From SAR202 cluster bacterium (GTDB taxonomy: Bacteria > Chloroflexota > Dehalococcoidia > Lucifugimonadales > VXLM01): a stretch of DNA of 64,000 nt. The stretch's first letter is position 1. Each line of letters opens with the position of its first letter. The position numbers and the translations under genes are program-made. Positions 24,725-33,602 of the stretch are shown one piece after another. The DNA lies in NCBI GenBank assembly GCA_022448725.1, contig JAKUTR010000013.1:1-64000 (forward strand). The letters run 5' to 3'. The notes below the pieces were generated by a model. The model was not told the DNA's origin, searched no databases, and saw only the letters and a list, made by a program, of their open reading frames with translations.

Positions 24725-25273
24725 ATGTGCCAATTGGAGCGTTGTAGGCGTACGGTCTGTGTGCTATGCTTTGTGAAGAATTTTGCAATCCCTGGGGCCC
24801 GCGATTTGACCGTAGCTAACGAGGACCTTAGAGACCGTATACGGCAGGCTATCAAGCGCCAAGAACGGCCCACTGTTACCGTACTGTCGTCGCTTCTTGC
24901 AACCCAGGACGAGTTCGGATATATCCCTCGCGAAGCGATTGAAGAGATCGCCGTCTACACTGGTGCAAGCACTAACGATGTCTGGGGTGTTGCATCCTTC
25001 TATAAAAACTTCCAGTTCACTGAACCTAATGAACACGTTATTGAGATCTGCTGGGGGCCTTCCTGTCACATCATGGGGGCGCCCGAAATTATCGAAGAAG
25101 CAGCGGAAGTGCTGGGCATAGAAGGTGAAGGAGATTCAGTTGATGGCAAAGGAACATTGCGCTACAACACGTGTCTTGGAGCATGCGCACGAGCTCCTGT
25201 TATTAGTATCGACCATCAGCTCTACGGACGCATGACAGCGAAAAAAGCAGTTGAAAAGATAAAGAGCCTCTAG
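24725..25273 (+). CDS. NuoE/HoxE/FdsG-like thioredoxin-fold [2Fe-2S] subunit
   Basis: Small electron-carrier subunit of an NADH-linked complex. The four cluster ligands are present: C109-x(4)-C114 (C-W-G-P-S-C) and C150-x(3)-C154 (C-L-G-A-C). The helical N-terminal part (L-R-D-R-I-R-Q-A-I, then L-L-A-T-Q-D-E-F-G-Y-I-P) is typical. The first 25 residues of the longest frame are Cys-rich and unlike the family, so translation may start at TTG 24806 instead of ATG 24725, giving 156 residues. It precedes the NuoF-like gene by 4 bp; the operon is E-F-A as in soluble formate dehydrogenases and hydrogenases. No membrane Nuo subunits follow. Confidence 0.9.
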   Translation: MCQLERCRRTVCVLCFVKNFAIPGARDLTVANEDLRDRIRQAIKRQERPTVTVLSSLLATQDEFGYIPREAIEEIAVYTGASTNDVWGVASFYKNFQFTEPNEHVIEICWGPSCHIMGAPEIIEEAAEVLGIEGEGDSVDGKGTLRYNTCLGACARAPVISIDHQLYGRMTAKKAVEKIKSL

Positions 25274-25277
25274 CGAT

Positions 25278-27041
25278 ATGTTTTCTTACGACGAACTTAA
25301 GGGTACAGCCGACCAGCGTTGGAAAGACTTAACGCAGGGTGACATGCCATGGATACGCGTTGGAACAGAGATGAATGGCCATGCCGCTGGTGGATTTCAA
25401 GTGATCGACGCTATTCGAAGTGAATTGGGTGCGAGGAACATTGCGGCTTATGTCGATGAGGTAGGAACGCTGGGGCTCTCATATGCTGAGCCTATAGTAG
25501 ATGTTCTGAAGCCCGGTAGAAGATCACGGCTACTTTTCCGAGATGTGCTAGTCGACGATCTGCCAGAGATCATTGACAAGTATATTGTTAACGACTCTGT
25601 CCCTGGTAATAAGGCGTTTGCCTATTTAGGGGAAGAACCTATCCAAGGGGTGCCCGATCTGCGTACGATCCCTCAGTATGGGATGCAGCAGCGGGTCGCT
25701 ATGCGGAACGCTGGGCACATTGCCCCGGCTGATATATATCAATATATCGCAAACGACGGATATGCAGCCTTGAATAAGGCGCTATTTGAGATTGGGGCGG
25801 ACACAGTTATCGAGGAAATGAAGGCATCGAACCTCCGAGGTCGTGGAGGTGCAGGCTTTCCTACGGGGCTTAAATGGAGCTTCATGGTGAATTCCCCTGG
25901 GCCGATTAAATACATTGCGTGTAACTGTGAAGAAGGTGACCCAGGAGCATTTAATGATAAGGCTATTTTAGAAAGTGATCCACACACCTTGCTTGAGGGA
26001 ATGTTACTAGCTGGATTCTCGACTGGGGCTTCCAACGGGTTCGTCTTTATTAGACACGGCCATGATGGTCCTATTGATCGTACTGAACGGGCTATTGAAC
26101 AGGCGTACGAATTGGGAATCTTGGGCAAGAACATCATGGGCAGTGACTTCAGTTTCGATATCGAGGTTAGCCTCACAGGGGACTCCTACGTGGCAGGGGA
26201 AGAGACAGCACTGATGGAATCGATCGAAGGCAAGAGATCAATGCCTAGGTTTAAGCCGCCGTTCCCTGCGGCAGCTGGAATCTGGCAGAAACCAACTACT
26301 ATCAACAATGTGAAGACCCTGGCATATGCACCACAGATCATCCTAAATGGGAGCGAGTGGTTCTCTGGAATTGGGACCGAAAAGAGTACAGGGACAGCGA
26401 TTGCCTGCCTGACTGGACATATTGCATACCCTGGCATTTATGAAGTGCCGATGGGTCTTACCATAGGTCAGGTCATCAACACCGTGGGTGGAGGGGTACC
26501 AGGCGGGAAGAGTCTGAAACTTTTACAAACAGGAGGACCACTCGGTGGTGTTCTTGGCCCCGATAGCCTTGATGTAAAAATCGACTTTGATGATATGGCC
26601 GCTGCCGGTGCAATCTTTGGATCTGGCGGTCTGATCGTAGGCAATGAAGATACTTCCGTCGTCGATCTGATTCGTGTGCTGGTCACTTTTTGTCAGTACG
26701 AGTCGTGTGGCAAATGCTTCCCCTGTCGTTTAGGTATGACACAGCTTCTAGATATAATGGAGCGGATCGCTCGTTTCGAAGGGAAGCCGGAAGACCTTGA
26801 CGTATGTGAGCGACTTGGAAAAACGATGCAGATAGGTTCTCTGTGTGCCCATGGCCAGCTTGGGTTTAACCCCATTAAATCTGCCCTCACTCACTTTATC
26901 AGCGAGTTTGAAGAGCATTTGAACGAACGTCGTGATCCGACTGGACGAACATCCACTAAATTCTTCTCCCCCAAAGCCACTCGGCCCTATTCTGAAGACT
27001 TTAGGGAAGTGCAGCCATTGGAGGTGATTAGTAGTCTGTAA
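25278..27041 (+). CDS. NuoF/FdsB/HndC-like NADH-binding flavoprotein subunit
   Basis: Oxidises NADH at FMN and passes electrons to Fe-S clusters. The core has the glycine-rich NADH/FMN site G-R-G-G-A-G-F-P-T-G (about 188-197), then C-N-C-E-E-G-D-P-G-A-F-N-D-K, and the [4Fe-4S] ligands C477-x2-C480-x2-C483 and C523 (S-L-C-A-H-G). The first 120 residues form the extra thioredoxin-like domain found in HndC/FdsB (A-A-G-G-F-Q-V-I-D-A-I at 36-46; Y-A-E-P-I-V-D-V at 69-76). All four [2Fe-2S] cysteines of that domain are gone: the first Cys of the protein is residue 215. Length 587 with no C-terminal ferredoxin domain. Sits 4 bp after the E subunit and 45 bp before the A subunit. Confidence 0.94.
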   Translation: MFSYDELKGTADQRWKDLTQGDMPWIRVGTEMNGHAAGGFQVIDAIRSELGARNIAAYVDEVGTLGLSYAEPIVDVLKPGRRSRLLFRDVLVDDLPEIIDKYIVNDSVPGNKAFAYLGEEPIQGVPDLRTIPQYGMQQRVAMRNAGHIAPADIYQYIANDGYAALNKALFEIGADTVIEEMKASNLRGRGGAGFPTGLKWSFMVNSPGPIKYIACNCEEGDPGAFNDKAILESDPHTLLEGMLLAGFSTGASNGFVFIRHGHDGPIDRTERAIEQAYELGILGKNIMGSDFSFDIEVSLTGDSYVAGEETALMESIEGKRSMPRFKPPFPAAAGIWQKPTTINNVKTLAYAPQIILNGSEWFSGIGTEKSTGTAIACLTGHIAYPGIYEVPMGLTIGQVINTVGGGVPGGKSLKLLQTGGPLGGVLGPDSLDVKIDFDDMAAAGAIFGSGGLIVGNEDTSVVDLIRVLVTFCQYESCGKCFPCRLGMTQLLDIMERIARFEGKPEDLDVCERLGKTMQIGSLCAHGQLGFNPIKSALTHFISEFEEHLNERRDPTGRTSTKFFSPKATRPYSEDFREVQPLEVISSL

Positions 27042-27086: not shown

Positions 27087-29876
27087 ATGCCAGAACACAT
27101 AACCATTGAAATTGACGGGACCAAGGTGCAAGCCGAGGCAGGGACGAATGTCCTTCAGGCAGCGATGGACGCTGGAGTATACGTGCCTTACCTATGCTAC
27201 TACCCGGGGATGAAGTCGTTCGGAGCATGCCGGATGTGTGTTGTTGAGATTGATGGACCCCGAGGGACCGAGACGGCAGCTTCGTGCACCGTCCCGGTGG
27301 GTCCGGATATGGTCGTTCGCACGCGTACTGATGATGTTCAGGATCTCCGCAGAAACATCATGGACTTGCTAATTTCCGAACATCCACACGGATGTCTTAA
27401 CTGCCACCGCGTTGACCTTTGCGGTCCGCAGGATATCTGCCTGCGGCATGTCGGAGTGAATGACCGTTGCGTGACATGTCCCAAGAACGAGCGGTGTGAA
27501 CTCAAAGACACTGTCCGTTGGCTTGAAATGGAACTTGATACTGAACTCACGTACAACAACCGGCATCTCCCGCAGCAGGTGAATGACCCGTTTTGGGACA
27601 TGGACCTCAACCTGTGCATCGTTTGTGGCAGATGTGTCCGGGCGTGCGATGAAATCAGAGGCGACAATGCCCTGGCGTTTGTTGATCGAGGTGGTAAAGG
27701 GCTGATAGGAACGTCTATCGGGACCTCGCTTTTGGAGTCAGGGTGTGAATTCTGTGGAGCATGCATTGATGTCTGTCCTACCGGCGCACTTGTTGAACGC
27801 GACCACAAATGGGATAAAGCGGTTACTACTTATCAAAGCACCTGCAACAATTGTGCTGTTGGCTGCCAAGTCAAACTTGAAGTGGATAAGCGTAACCAGC
27901 TAATTCGAACTATTGGAGATCTACATGGTGCTCCGAACCAGGGCCAGCTTTGTGTGAAGGGCAAATTCGGCCTTGAATACGTTAATGACAAGCGGCGGCT
28001 GAGAACACCCCTCATACGCAGAGGCGAAGATCTAGAAGAGACTACTTTAACGAGTGCTCTTGATTTTGCTGCTGCTGAACTTGCGAAATACAGAGGGGAA
28101 GGATTTGCTCTGATAGCTTCTCCTCGACACGCCAATGAGGATCTCTACATCGCCCAAAAGTTTTCACGTGTGGTTATGGAGAGTAACAACGTTGACGTCT
28201 CATCCAATCTCCGCCCAGAGTTGTTTCCTGCCCTCGGCGAGATGCTTGGATACCCAGCGGCGACTAACACAATATGGGATCTAGAACTCGCAAAGAGCTT
28301 CCTTGTTGTATCCAGCAACATGACAGAAGAGCAGAACGTTACGGCTATACCTATTAAAAAGGCTTTAAAGACAGGAGCCAAACTTTTAGTCATAGACCAA
28401 CGCGAGACAGAATTGACTCGCTATGCTGACCTATGGCTCCGTCCACGACCTGGTACAGAGACAGCTCTCATAGGTGGTATGTTGCGAGTCATTGTTGATG
28501 AATCGCTGGATGATCATGAATTTCTGTCAAAAGGAGTCAATGGAGTAACGGATTTTAAAAATAGCCTCTGGGAGTTTGACCTGATGCAGGTTGAACAGAT
28601 CACATCCATCTCGCGGGAACAAATCCAACAGGCTGCTCGAATTTTTGTTGAGAATGGCCCTGGAGCAATACTGTACGGTCTTGAGACGGTCGAGCCAGTA
28701 GATAGGGACGCTTGCGTCAGAAGCCTCATTGATCTAGCCATTATAACTGGGAGTGTAGCAAAGCAGGCAGCAGGTACTGGTTTATATCCACTGTATGCTG
28801 GCGCTAATGAGCAAGGTGCGAGAGACATGGGTTGCGTTCCTAGTCATTTGCCAGGACATAGTCTCGTTAATGAGGAGTCTGCGATCGATAGGTTCAACCG
28901 CGAATGGGCCACTGTGCTGCCTTCAAATCCAGGCGTTGGTGTTCGGGAAATCACAGAGAAGATAACCAGCGGCCAGATTGAAGCGATGTTTCTCTTGGGG
29001 AATAGTGAAAACTTCAAAAATGGAACCATGGGTGAATTCATTGATGCTCTGGGGGATCTAAAGTTTCTTGTTGTGGCAGATACTTTCGCTAGTGAGATCA
29101 CTGAGGTAGCGGATGTGGTTCTACCAGCAGCCACATTTGCAGAAGAGCAAGGTACGTTCACAAATATGGAGCGGAGGGTCCAGCTAACACAAAGAGCGAT
29201 TACTGCCAAAGGAGAAGAAGATTCCGCTTGGCGTATCCTGGGACAGATCGCGCGTCGAATAGGTGTTAACGGGTTTGACCATCCCAATTCCGAGGATGTT
29301 TTTGAAGAAATCCGAGGCATGGTGGCTCTCTACGGTGGGATCACGCACGAGCGGCTGGCAAAGGGAGGGGTACAATGGCCATGTCCGGCTATTGACACCT
29401 CCGAATCATCTGCCCCACATACTGAAGGTAGCCAAGACAAATTATCGCTCACGCCGATAGAGTTCCCAGAACCTCAAGGAGAGATCGACCCCAGTAGTGA
29501 GTATCCACTGACACTCGCGCATGGGCGCGTGTTGCGAGAGCCGGATAGGAAGATGGAGATTGATCTTGTAGATAAGCGCAACATCATCGTGCGAGAAGAG
29601 ATACTCGAGGTACACCCAGAGGATGCTCTTGTGTTGGGACTATCTGTAGGTGATGTGATTGATGTGGTTTCCGAGCGAGAGAGGATTAGAGGTGTCGTTG
29701 ATACCACGAGTCCTCTCAAAGGGGTGGTTTCAACGACAACTCTTTTTGGTAGTCGCCTACTAGATATCAATCAAGGTGCGACCCCCGATCCAATGATTGA
29801 GTTTGGCGCCTTGCCGCTAATCCCCGTTCGTATTGAGAAAGTAGCAGCCCAACCTATCGAAGCTGCAGCTGACTAG
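27087..29876 (+). CDS. FdhA/NuoG-like molybdopterin-oxidoreductase-fold subunit without catalytic cysteine
   Basis: A 929-residue subunit with, in order: a [2Fe-2S] domain (C37, C48, C51, C67); an enlarged His-Cys [4Fe-4S] region with two C-x2-C-x5-C groups (H99, C103, C106, C112 and C128, C131, C137, plus C118); two ferredoxin clusters (C177-C187, C220-C230); the molybdopterin-fold cluster (C253, C256, C260, C289) followed by V-K-G-K-F-G; and the molybdopterin-binding body and C-terminal domain. Where formate dehydrogenases have the Mo-ligating Cys/Sec and adjacent His, after N-N-V-D, this protein reads V-S-S-N-L-R-P-E. No Cys occurs from residue 290 to beyond 540. It is therefore unlikely to oxidise formate and may serve, like NuoG, as an electron conduit. 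Third gene of the E-F-A set. Confidence 0.9.
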   Translation: MPEHITIEIDGTKVQAEAGTNVLQAAMDAGVYVPYLCYYPGMKSFGACRMCVVEIDGPRGTETAASCTVPVGPDMVVRTRTDDVQDLRRNIMDLLISEHPHGCLNCHRVDLCGPQDICLRHVGVNDRCVTCPKNERCELKDTVRWLEMELDTELTYNNRHLPQQVNDPFWDMDLNLCIVCGRCVRACDEIRGDNALAFVDRGGKGLIGTSIGTSLLESGCEFCGACIDVCPTGALVERDHKWDKAVTTYQSTCNNCAVGCQVKLEVDKRNQLIRTIGDLHGAPNQGQLCVKGKFGLEYVNDKRRLRTPLIRRGEDLEETTLTSALDFAAAELAKYRGEGFALIASPRHANEDLYIAQKFSRVVMESNNVDVSSNLRPELFPALGEMLGYPAATNTIWDLELAKSFLVVSSNMTEEQNVTAIPIKKALKTGAKLLVIDQRETELTRYADLWLRPRPGTETALIGGMLRVIVDESLDDHEFLSKGVNGVTDFKNSLWEFDLMQVEQITSISREQIQQAARIFVENGPGAILYGLETVEPVDRDACVRSLIDLAIITGSVAKQAAGTGLYPLYAGANEQGARDMGCVPSHLPGHSLVNEESAIDRFNREWATVLPSNPGVGVREITEKITSGQIEAMFLLGNSENFKNGTMGEFIDALGDLKFLVVADTFASEITEVADVVLPAATFAEEQGTFTNMERRVQLTQRAITAKGEEDSAWRILGQIARRIGVNGFDHPNSEDVFEEIRGMVALYGGITHERLAKGGVQWPCPAIDTSESSAPHTEGSQDKLSLTPIEFPEPQGEIDPSSEYPLTLAHGRVLREPDRKMEIDLVDKRNIIVREEILEVHPEDALVLGLSVGDVIDVVSERERIRGVVDTTSPLKGVVSTTTLFGSRLLDINQGATPDPMIEFGALPLIPVRIEKVAAQPIEAAAD

Positions 29877-30025: not shown

Positions 30026-30781
30026 GTGACACCAACTAAACGACAGTTCAACTCGAAACCCAAGACCGTTGAGGCTAAGGTGCTAAAACGGAAAGATGTC
30101 ACGGATGAGCTTCTTTTGATTTGGGTAAAGCGTCCTGAAGGCCTGAGTTTCAAGGCAGGGCAGTACTGCACGATAGGGATTGGTGGTATCGAGCGGGCCT
30201 ATTCCATTGCCTCAGCACCGTATGAAGAGGATTTGGAGTTGTTCGTTGAATTGGTTCCGTTACCAGAGGGGAATCTCACTCCGTTAATTTGGGAACTTAA
30301 CGAGGGTGACGTTGTGACGATCCGACCGCGTGCAAAGGGAATTTTCACCTTCAAATCTGACAAGCCCAATCAGTTAATGGTTGCAACCGTTACTGGGGTC
30401 GTGCCATTTGTAAGTATAGTTCGTCAATACCTACACGATGATGATTCAGGCCACCATTTCTATATTCTTGAAGGGGCTAGTTACTTTGATGAACTTACAT
30501 ATGATACTGAGCTACATGAACTAGCGAAACAACACCCGGATGTAATCACCTTTATTCCAACTGTGAGCAGACCGTCGGAAGAACGTAACCTGGGCTGGCT
30601 GGGGCAAACAGGCAGGGTAAATAGCATCGTTAATCAATACGTTGAAGAGTTTAGTCTCAGCGATGATGATACAGTCATCTATGCCTGTGGCCACCCCGAC
30701 ATGATAGAGGATGTTAAGGACCAGTTTCTCCCCAAAGGGTTCCAGGTTGAGGAAGAACGTTTTTGGAAACAGGATGACTAG
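30026..30781 (+). CDS. Fpr-type ferredoxin/flavodoxin-NADP+ reductase
   Basis: FAD enzyme of 251 residues that transfers electrons between NAD(P)H and a ferredoxin or flavodoxin. The FAD motif R57-A-Y-S60, the V-E-L-V-P segment with L-T-P-L-I, and the C-terminal Y-A-C-G-H-P-D-M are typical of the bacterial Fpr subclass. The pyrophosphate motif, usually A-T-G-T-G-V-A-P-F, reads A-T-V-T-G-V-V-P-F (residues 120-128). It lacks the Cys-rich tail of NfnA/PyrK proteins. GTG start at 30026 behind GGGAG; the overlapping ATG at 30024 is followed at once by a stop. It sits 149 bp after the E-F-A oxidoreductase genes, which suggests that the complex and this enzyme share a ferredoxin pool. That link is inference. 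Confidence 0.9.
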   Translation: MTPTKRQFNSKPKTVEAKVLKRKDVTDELLLIWVKRPEGLSFKAGQYCTIGIGGIERAYSIASAPYEEDLELFVELVPLPEGNLTPLIWELNEGDVVTIRPRAKGIFTFKSDKPNQLMVATVTGVVPFVSIVRQYLHDDDSGHHFYILEGASYFDELTYDTELHELAKQHPDVITFIPTVSRPSEERNLGWLGQTGRVNSIVNQYVEEFSLSDDDTVIYACGHPDMIEDVKDQFLPKGFQVEEERFWKQDD

Positions 30782-30901: not shown

Positions 30902-30989
30902 AATAGATTGTTGTTACAACAGTGCGACTAAGCGTGTACTCCATGTACTATGATGCCAGACATTGAAGAAATCCCCGAGAGGTGAAAGA

Positions 30990-33248
30990 TTGACGACGAG
31001 CTATGAATCCAACGTAGTCCTATCAACCAAAGAATACGATGTTGTTGGCAGCCGCCCTATTCGCCATGATGGTGCGGATAAGGTAACTGGATCTGCTAAA
31101 TACGGCGCAGACACCTCACCTACAGGATTGATCTATGGAAAGATCCTCAGGAGTCCCCACGCCCATGCACGTATCGTCTCGATTGACACGAACGGGGCCG
31201 AGGCACTGGCTACAACGCGCGCAATTGTCACCGGCGCAGATTTTACTGGTGGTGATGGGGAGAAGGAAACAAGAGACCTTCGTGAGAGCGTTATGGCTAC
31301 GCGTAAAGTTTTGTATAAAGGACACCCGATCGTGGGCGTTGCTGCTACAAGTCCTCATGATGCGGAAGAGGCAATAAAGTTAATCAAAATTGAGTACGAG
31401 ATTTTGCCGCATGTGTTGACCGCACCGGATGCTATGTCAAAAGCTGCACCGATTCTGCATGAAGATAATCGCTCTGAGTACAGTGGTGATGACGTACCTA
31501 CCAATGTTGAGGAGTATATTCACCACCAGAAAGGAGATATCGCGAAAGGTTTTGCCAGGGCTGATGTTGTGGTCGAACGTGAATACAACACGGCTACTGT
31601 GCATCAGGGATACATTGAACCCCAAAACACGACTGTAATTTGGGGTAAAGATGGTCGGGTCCGCATTTGGTGTAGTACACAAGGCCCCTTTGACGTTCGC
31701 GACGCAACGGCGAAAGCACTCGGATTGGAAGAATCAGAGGTAGTGTTAACTCCACAGGAAATCGGGGGAGGTTTCGGTGGTAAGTTTGACCCCTACGGAG
31801 CCCCAGTAGCTGCTTTGCTCTCGAAAAAGACAAATCGGCCCGTTAAGATTGTAATGACTAGGAGTGAAGACTTAGAGGCTAGCGGTCCGACTCCAGGATC
31901 CTTTATCAAAGTCAAAATGGGCTGTACGAAAAAGGGTGAACTGGTTGCGGCACAGGCTTACATGGCATACGAATCGGGAGCCTATTCTGGATCCATGATT
32001 AGTGCTGGAACGATGTGCGTGTTCGCCCCTTACGAGTGTGAGAATATGGAGGTTCAGGGTTTCGGAGTCTTTGTAAACAAGCCATCAACCAATGCATACC
32101 GAGCCCCTGGTGCGACCAACGCTGAGTTTGCCTCTGAGTCGGTGATCGATGAGCTAGCGGCTAAAACAGGTATTGATCCGGTAGAGTTCCGCATGTTAAA
32201 TGCAGCTACCGAGGGCACTCGACGTGTGGACGGACCCGTCTTTCCTACAATCGGTCTAACGGATGTTCTTGACAGTATCAAGAACCATCCACACTATAGT
32301 GCACCATTGGAGGGTCCTAATACGGGACGGGGGATTGCGGTGGGCTGGTGGGTAAACGGAGGTGGCCCGTCAAGTGTGACCATAAATATAAACTCTGATG
32401 GCACATGTAGCCTCATTGAAGGTTCGCCGGATATTGGAGGTACTCGTACTTCCATCTCAATGCAGGCTGCGGAAGTTCTAGGAATCCCCGTTGAGGATAT
32501 CAATCCCATGGTTGTAAGTACCGACGAGGTAGGTTATACAGCGGGCACAGGTGGTAGTCGGGTTACGTTTGCGACAGGTATGGCTGCCCACAATGCTGCT
32601 CAAGACGTGAAGCGCCAGATGGAGAAGCGTGCGGCAAAGATCTGGGATGTAAACTCCGAGTCTGTGGAAATGACTTCAGGAGTGATACGTTCCAAAGCCG
32701 ATAATGAACTTAGCATGACTTTCAAAGAACTGGCAGCTGAAATGAACAACACTGGCGAACCGATCGTGGGACGAGCAACAGTAGATGCTGGTGGTGTTGG
32801 GTCCGCTTACTGTGGGAATATCGTTGATCTCCATGTGGATACTGAGACCGGGAAGGTCAACATTTTGCGATTTACTGCTGTTCAGGATGTTGGCAAGGCG
32901 ATTCATCCCTCTTACGTTGAAGGGCAAATGCAAGGAGGTAGTGTACAAGGGATTGGATGGGCCCTCAATGAGGAATACTTCATGGGGGATGATGGTAGTA
33001 TGGCTAATAGTACCTTCCTAGACTACCGTATTCCTGTTGCAAACGATCTTCCAATGATTGACACGGTAATCGTTGAGACTGCTAACCCTGGCCATCCTTT
33101 TGGTGTCCGCGGAGTTGGTGAAGTGAACATCGTTCCCCCTCCGGCTGCCATTGCGAATGCGATTAATAACGCTATTGGTGTTCGTATGAATGTCCTTCCA
33201 ATGAGCCCAGTAAATATCATGAATAATATTTGGAGAAACGATGGATAA
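30990..33248 (+). CDS. Xanthine dehydrogenase family molybdopterin-binding subunit, stand-alone
   Basis: Large molybdenum subunit (752 residues from TTG 30990, which has GAGAGGTG 5 bp upstream; a TTG at 30963 is the longer alternative). The family order is clear: an N-terminal a/b-hammerhead (V-T-G-S-A-K-Y-G-A-D) and then the molybdopterin body with G-G-G-F-G-G-K. The C-terminal catalytic Glu is at residue 711 in V-G-E (G-V-R-G-V-G-E-V-N). The A-Y-R-A-P-G sequence stands where CoxL has A-Y-x-C-S-F-R, so it is not a form I CO dehydrogenase. Neither the FAD subunit nor the 2x[2Fe-2S] subunit is adjacent; a MoaD-like gene follows. The substrate, perhaps an aldehyde or N-heterocycle, is unknown. 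Confidence 0.92.
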   Translation: MTTSYESNVVLSTKEYDVVGSRPIRHDGADKVTGSAKYGADTSPTGLIYGKILRSPHAHARIVSIDTNGAEALATTRAIVTGADFTGGDGEKETRDLRESVMATRKVLYKGHPIVGVAATSPHDAEEAIKLIKIEYEILPHVLTAPDAMSKAAPILHEDNRSEYSGDDVPTNVEEYIHHQKGDIAKGFARADVVVEREYNTATVHQGYIEPQNTTVIWGKDGRVRIWCSTQGPFDVRDATAKALGLEESEVVLTPQEIGGGFGGKFDPYGAPVAALLSKKTNRPVKIVMTRSEDLEASGPTPGSFIKVKMGCTKKGELVAAQAYMAYESGAYSGSMISAGTMCVFAPYECENMEVQGFGVFVNKPSTNAYRAPGATNAEFASESVIDELAAKTGIDPVEFRMLNAATEGTRRVDGPVFPTIGLTDVLDSIKNHPHYSAPLEGPNTGRGIAVGWWVNGGGPSSVTININSDGTCSLIEGSPDIGGTRTSISMQAAEVLGIPVEDINPMVVSTDEVGYTAGTGGSRVTFATGMAAHNAAQDVKRQMEKRAAKIWDVNSESVEMTSGVIRSKADNELSMTFKELAAEMNNTGEPIVGRATVDAGGVGSAYCGNIVDLHVDTETGKVNILRFTAVQDVGKAIHPSYVEGQMQGGSVQGIGWALNEEYFMGDDGSMANSTFLDYRIPVANDLPMIDTVIVETANPGHPFGVRGVGEVNIVPPPAAIANAINNAIGVRMNVLPMSPVNIMNNIWRNDG

Positions 33249-33338: not shown

Positions 33339-33602
33339 ATGGCAACTGTATTCATACCCCCGCTAATGCAGAAACTGACGGGTGGTGAGCGGACTGTAGA
33401 TGTAGAAGGGAAAAACGTCCGCGAGGTGATCAATAACCTTGAAGTACTACACCCAGGCACAAGGGAGAGGCTTGTGGACGGGTTTAAGCTCAAGCCTAAC
33501 ATCTCTGTAGCTGTCGATGGAGAGACTACTCCGATCGGTATGCTCGAGAAAGTGGGGGAAGACTCAGAGGTACATTTTTTGCCAGCGATCGGTGGAGGGT
33601 AG
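33339..33602 (+). CDS. MoaD/ThiS-like ubiquitin-fold sulfur carrier
   Basis: An 87-residue beta-grasp protein ending in A-I-G-G-G, the C-terminal Gly-Gly that is adenylated and thiocarboxylated in MoaD, ThiS and CysO. ATG 33339 is chosen over the upstream ATG at 33309 because GAGG lies 8 bp before it and the protein then opens with the first beta strand (A-T-V-F-I-P-P). The V-E-G-K-N-V-R-E-V-I-N-N-L motif matches the family helix. It follows the molybdenum-enzyme gene by 90 bp, which would fit a role in molybdopterin synthesis, but a cysteine or other sulfur-transfer role is as likely. The window's JAMM peptidase is of the type that processes such carriers. Confidence 0.88.
   Translation: MATVFIPPLMQKLTGGERTVDVEGKNVREVINNLEVLHPGTRERLVDGFKLKPNISVAVDGETTPIGMLEKVGEDSEVHFLPAIGGG

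Follow-up and report, generated by a model that had tools for sequence, protein, structure and literature searches.

In the formate dehydrogenase (FDH) of Rhodobacter capsulatus, Mo is bound by Cys386 of the FdsA subunit, whose His387 and Arg587 also belong to the active site (PMC7171172). Inactive FDH domains are already known from NuoG (Nqo3) of complex I and from StnC of the Stn transhydrogenase of Sporomusa ovata (PDB 8OH5), where the inactive FdhF domain is needed for assembly (PMC10482914). In the Nuo-Bfu system of Geobacter, BfuABC has been proposed to take the place of NuoEFG as a non-canonical NADH module on complex I (PMC9304861), and OmeA (DET0187) of Dehalococcoides is an FDH-like protein without FDH activity that has been proposed as an electron carrier (PMC5736913, PMC6005880). 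Which protein feeds the 11-subunit complex I has yet to be settled (PMC11238625); a deep-sea Chloroflexi genome has a separate nuoEFG operon beside its 11-subunit Nuo (PMC5736913). For the SAR202 clade, components of an aerobic respiratory chain have been described (PMC5864207), and genome papers cite formate dehydrogenase for one-carbon oxidation (PMC5395668, PMC5864207).

The window analysed here, a stretch of 64,000 nucleotides, comes from a SAR202-clade Dehalococcoidia genome that is 95% complete. An intact open reading frame of 929 amino acids on its forward strand (27087-29876) encodes an FdhA/FdsA-like Fe-S protein which, together with its orthologues in the order, is hereafter referred to as FDHx. 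The best PDB match is R. capsulatus FdsA (6tg9_A, E=1.7e-129, residues 2-884), and about 670 residues make up a complete pterin fold. The gene, its conserved neighbours and the cofactor sites are as follows.

24725-25273, + strand: NuoE/FdsG-like thioredoxin-fold [2Fe-2S] subunit, first gene of the conserved cluster (Pfam 2Fe-2S_thioredx, E=1.2e-34); the annotated start may lie too far upstream
25278-27041, + strand: NuoF-like FMN/NADH-binding subunit (Pfam Complex1_51K, SLBB and NADH_4Fe-4S only)
27087-29876, + strand: FDHx, FdhA/FdsA-like Fe-S subunit without the Mo/W ligand (PDB, Pfam, NCBIfam and orthologue alignment)
27195-27287, + strand: [2Fe-2S] ligands C37, C48, C51 and C67, N1b equivalent (invariant in 42/42)
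27381-27497, + strand: N5-type loop with H99, C103, C106, C112, C118, C128, C131 and C137 (ligands invariant in FDHx)
27615-27776, + strand: two-[4Fe-4S] ferredoxin domain, C177, C180, C183, C187 and C220, C223, C226, C230 (Pfam; invariant ligands)
27843-27953, + strand: [4Fe-4S] adjoining the pterin fold, C253, C256, C260 and C289, N7/A1 equivalent (Pfam Molybdop_Fe4S4; invariant)
28185-28220, + strand: former Mo/W-ligand site NNVD-VSSNLRPE, Cys/Sec column deleted and His replaced by R376 (orthologue alignment)
28794-28802, + strand: former catalytic Arg-Gly-Gln (FdhF R333-G334-Q335), here Y570-A571-G572 (alignment)
30026-30781, + strand: FNR-type FAD/NAD(P)H flavoprotein of the ferredoxin/flavodoxin-NADP reductase family (5tr9_A, E=3e-20), a conserved neighbour

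The first-pass annotation, made from the sequence of the window, had warned that automatic annotation as formate dehydrogenase would be wrong. This applies to naming by similarity, where FdsA is the best PDB match, and does not apply to the NCBIfam cut-offs, as FDHx reaches 446.6 bits with TIGR01591 (Fdh-alpha; cut-off 666.25) and 316 bits with the NuoG model (cut-off 470). Structure prediction from 16 sequences gave a mean pLDDT of 59.9, falling below 50 at the former Mo site and in the cofactor regions; in a Foldseek search with this model, which is too weak for superposition and served as a consistency check only, FDHs came first and NuoG lower.

FDHx shares with R. capsulatus FdsA (PDB 6TG9/6TGA) the FdsG-FdsB-FdsA gene order and five Fe-S ligand sets, but has no counterparts of C386, H387 and R587, no FdsC/FdsD neighbours, and an extra ligand set in the N5 loop. 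With NuoG/Nqo3 it has in common the ligand sets of the NADH arm, the lost Mo site, the NuoE and NuoF partners and, probably, the role of an NADH relay; unlike NuoG, it lies outside the nuo operon, carries the N5 insert and retains a complete second [4Fe-4S] in its ferredoxin domain, one that NuoG has often lost. StnC likewise joins an inactive FdhF-like domain and its clusters to NuoE/NuoF-like partners (PMC10482914), but its fused GltD-like NADPH domain is absent from FDHx, among whose Pfam domains no such domain was found, and the extra C-terminal clusters for ferredoxin of the Stn NuoF partner are absent from the NuoF linked to FDHx. In comparison with Nuo-Bfu, for which a non-canonical NADH module on complex I is likewise proposed, the BfuB ferredoxin domain is missing, the genes lie outside the nuo operon and the G-like subunit is derived from an FDH. 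OmeA, although from the same class, is the molybdoenzyme of a membrane complex tied to a hydrogenase and a reductive dehalogenase, not to NuoEF.

Residues were compared in an alignment of 42 FDHx orthologues from the order (none of them more than 66% identical to the window protein), 45 Cys-His or Sec-His relatives, six others in which Cys-His is not intact, and three NuoG. That every Fe-S ligand set is intact, as the first-pass annotation had stated, agrees with this alignment, in which each ligand is invariant among the orthologues barring an occasional undetermined residue and the NuoG-type N1b, N4, N5 and N7 sets are all present. Also invariant (42/42) are C106, C112, C118 and C128 inside the N5 loop, which the earlier reading did not mention. 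The eight ligands of this loop would suffice for two [4Fe-4S], and an extra cluster is probable on this pattern of residues; the printed alignments with solved structures match one half of the tandem motif or the other, never both. The eight-ligand insert also occurs in many Sec-type FDHs of Dehalococcoidia and is absent from FdsA and from every NuoG examined.

The molybdenum site presents the opposite picture. Residues 367-370 of the window protein are NNVD and residues 371-378 VSSNLRPE, in place of the expected Cys-His, and consecutive cysteines fall at 289 and 543; both observations had been made at the first reading and are borne out. Set against the 45 Cys-His/Sec-His FDHs, the column of the catalytic Cys/Sec is a one-residue deletion in 42/42 orthologues, and the position of the essential His holds Arg in 25/42, the others having Lys, Asp, Gln, Val etc. 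The catalytic Arg (FdhF R333, FdsA R587) is Tyr in the window protein and mostly Phe or Tyr in the family, Arg being present in this column in 8/42 FDHx versus 43/45 catalytic FDHs. Further replacements affect FdhF Q335 (Gly in 42/42), P182 (Asn in 40/42) and G298 (Glu or Asp in 41/42). As the same deletion is present across the order, chance or sequencing error is excluded; the deletion is a general trait of the order and has functional meaning. At exactly the deleted column, relatives in other parts of the class have an in-frame TGA (e.g. L100, L108 and L109) or a Cys, which indicates that the ancestor of FDHx was a Sec- or Cys-dependent enzyme. Read-through of Sec in the window gene or its orthologues was considered and rejected, the one TGA seen (L012) lying at the end of the gene and not at the site; C583 was likewise rejected as a substitute ligand, being unconserved and present also in relatives with the catalytic Cys.

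The first-pass annotation had left a choice between a NuoG-like relay and a pterin enzyme with different chemistry. Other chemistry on the same fold is known from acetylene hydratase and arsenite oxidase, and an FDHx holding a Mo/W cofactor in its pocket through Arg, Ser or water as ligand and acting on another substrate would fit with the completeness of the fold. The clade-specific residues N417, E/D533 and G572 are themselves conserved in FDHx, and K291, the equivalent of FdhF Lys44, is still Lys in 34/42, so that a residual pterin is possible. The motif replacing Cys-His, however, is strict (RPEL) in the core group only and gives way elsewhere in the order to KPEL, QPDA, DSNM, NINY and others. 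Constraint along the protein, measured as the mean majority-residue frequency in FDHx orthologues versus catalytic relatives, points in the same direction, with values of 0.74 versus 0.55 for residues 1-150 and 0.80 versus 0.56 for residues 160-245, against 0.61 versus 0.65 for residues 311-580, 0.54 versus 0.66 for residues 581-770 and 0.49 versus 0.63 for residues 800-929. Since the catalytic set is the more divergent overall, the lower conservation of the pterin half of FDHx reflects relaxed constraint. Moreover, a search for FdhD (PF02634) drew a blank in this genome, which is 95% complete, and was positive in 8/14 control genomes. The pattern of constraint and the drift of the motif are, as far as sequences can tell, as predicted by a relay and unlike a new catalytic site, and a pterin enzyme of different chemistry is improbable. 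Considering the loss of the three catalytic residues, the invariant Fe-S ligands, the relaxed pterin half, the FdhD result and the link to nuoE and nuoF, FDHx is very probably an electron relay and not a formate dehydrogenase, and would carry neither Mo nor W.

The likeness to NuoG raises the question of descent. FDHx forms one clade in all three trees (support 100 in the quick tree, 100/100 in the careful tree and 97/94 under the mixture model), apart from FdsA, and in none of the three does it group with FdsA or with the catalytic FDH that its genome also encodes. Two of these trees place it next to ligand-less proteins (L106, L113, L117) from two further families of the class, and then next to FDHs of the class with the N5 insert. 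The family tree with NuoG and FdhA that had been suggested at the outset thus separates FDHx from FdsA, but the position of NuoG, which sits on very long branches, differs among the three trees. The clade tests made with the quick tree are given no weight here, as topologies under constraint outscored the unconstrained one. FDHx could be a true NuoG that shares a ligand-less ancestor with the NuoG of complex I and is FDH-like merely in appearance: a 64-row tree joins two Chloroflexota NuoG to the ligand-less group (90/99), and the NuoG of the phylum has the same one-residue deletion. This is the least probable of the explanations considered here and very unlikely, given the length of the NuoG branches, the failure of the two NuoG rows to group under the mixture model, the separate placement of NuoG in the quick tree, the HydB-like NuoF of the cluster with its extra N-terminal domain and the eight-ligand insert, which is shared with Sec-FDHs of the class and absent from every NuoG examined. 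The common insert argues that FDHx arose from insert-bearing FDHs and came to resemble NuoG by parallel change; its likeness to NuoG is one of role and probably not of descent. By these trees and alignments the Mo/W ligand was lost more than once, in FDHx and its neighbours and in L112 and L123, with His alone lost in L110. The last three proteins, all from outside the order, show partial or different losses of Cys-His (LCD, LDR and LRD in L110, L112 and L123, respectively), a series of decaying sites.

The order nuoE-nuoF-FDHx is conserved, mostly followed by the FNR-type flavoprotein. By coordinates, NuoF lies within 5 kb of FDHx in 91/93 FDHx genomes and FNR within 4 kb in 69/93. The best PDB matches of the NuoF-like subunit are HydB (7t2r_B, 9bov_B), and its body is of the HydB/StnB type; the C-terminal two-[4Fe-4S] domain of HydB/StnB was not found in it by Pfam. 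The tail of FDHx-linked NuoF contains 0-3 cysteines, versus 10 in several relatives linked to Sec- or Cys-FDHs. The number of Fe-S clusters differs between bifurcating and non-bifurcating beta subunits (PMC7311640), and a NuoF without the extra clusters would therefore be expected to be a non-bifurcating diaphorase; in its sequence features the FDHx cluster offers no pointer to ferredoxin bifurcation. At the N-terminal [2Fe-2S] cysteines kept in most of the order, the window NuoF has Asn, Thr and Ser, and scattered parallel losses of these cysteines occur in other families.

Elsewhere in the genome, an fdsG-fdsB-FDH operon (L049:1934-9340, contig C1) encodes an FDH with the motif RLCHSP, that is, an intact Cys-His, and thus a formate role is covered by another gene. 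This second FDH is without the N5 ligands, is adjoined by an aldehyde:ferredoxin oxidoreductase and mobA, and is followed by a 218-amino-acid protein of unknown function. Complex I is encoded by one complete cluster, nuoABCDHIJKLMN (11 subunits), on another contig than FDHx; nuoE, nuoF and nuoG are absent from this cluster, no other NuoG was found in the genome, and its only two NuoF genes are those of FDHx and of the Cys-His FDH.

In a survey of 98 genomes of the order, NuoD is present in 98/98, NuoF in 94/98 and FDHx in 93/98, about 10 absences being expected from genome incompleteness alone. A NuoF neighbours FDHx in 91 genomes, 54 of which have no other NuoF. Complex I clusters of the order yielded no NuoF, and only one NuoF, that of a Cys-type FDH, came within 20 kb of a listed NuoD. 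An NDH-2 homologue (query E. coli Ndh) was detected in 6/98 genomes only; as NDH-2 is nearly absent, most genomes would show no visible route from NADH to quinone without the FDHx complex. In many genomes of the order (e.g. L090, L092 and L096) a second, more divergent complex I cluster was also seen, with subunits about 40-50% identical.

NuoE-NuoF-FDHx may, on balance, supply the NADH module that the 11-subunit complex I lacks. NADH would deliver its electrons to the FMN of the NuoF-like subunit, from where they would travel through the Fe-S clusters of NuoF, NuoE and FDHx and exit most likely to the NuoI cluster of the complex I encoded elsewhere, on which the module would dock. The link to complex I is favoured by a sister-lineage genome (L175:3-13695) in which fdsG-fdsB-FDH(Sec) and NfnA-like and NfnB-like genes precede nuoABCDHIJKL on the same strand, the Sec-FDH lying about 3 kb upstream of nuoA with the two Nfn-like genes between. 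Several observations count against it. In no genome of the order does FDHx come within 20 kb of a listed nuoD, the adjoining FNR could be the real electron exit, other organisms have an 11-subunit complex I that can accept electrons from ferredoxin (PMC11238625), and reduced ferredoxin is produced in SAR202 (PMC5395668). G044 and G065, both genomes of a single family, keep complex I and FNR and are without FDHx and NuoF, which suggests that true loss is tolerated.

The same neighbourhood would also suit a soluble enzyme for NADH-ferredoxin-NADPH exchange, in which NuoEF, FDHx and FNR interconvert NADH and NADPH, possibly via ferredoxin, as a non-bifurcating cousin of Stn. FNR, present in 84/98 genomes of the order, is the direct neighbour in the 69 genomes noted above and belongs to the ferredoxin/flavodoxin-NADP reductase family, the sister Sec-FDH operon has its NfnA-like and NfnB-like genes at the same place, and StnC provides a precedent for a dead FdhF domain (PMC10482914). 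In about a quarter of the FDHx genomes, however, FNR is elsewhere or was not found, and G044 and G065 keep FNR without FDHx. By textbook potentials, moreover, transfer from NADH to ferredoxin is uphill without bifurcation, and the FDHx-linked NuoF lacks the ferredoxin clusters of HydB/StnB. Such an enzyme would also leave NADH without a visible quinone route in most genomes, and it is regarded here as rather unlikely. The overall reading, an FDH disarmed at both ends that acts as a NuoG-like relay and most likely feeds NADH electrons into complex I, is considered fairly probable. A more specific proposal, that this whole order of abundant ocean bacteria exchanged the NADH module of complex I for an electron-bifurcating FDH disarmed at both the formate site of its alpha subunit and the ferredoxin clusters of its beta subunit, is put forward tentatively; if true, it would be a second instance of the path by which NuoG is supposed to have arisen, and would show how NADH feeds an 11-subunit complex I, a role for which SAR202 offers a single, near-universal candidate.

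The natural series from selenocysteine through cysteine to no ligand illustrates how an FDH may become a relay of an NADH dehydrogenase. Part of the published SAR202 FDH calls could be FDHx, and would then be no sign of formate use. Downstream of the conserved cluster, the window encodes a lone molybdenum subunit of the XDH/4-hydroxybenzoyl-CoA-reductase type (30963-33248), with no FAD or small Fe-S subunits visible alongside; it was rejected as a true partner of FDHx, being outside the conserved cluster of the relatives, and a relative of it is found near the cluster in the same genus only. It is directly followed by a small MoaD/ThiS-like open reading frame (33339-33602) with a GG end.
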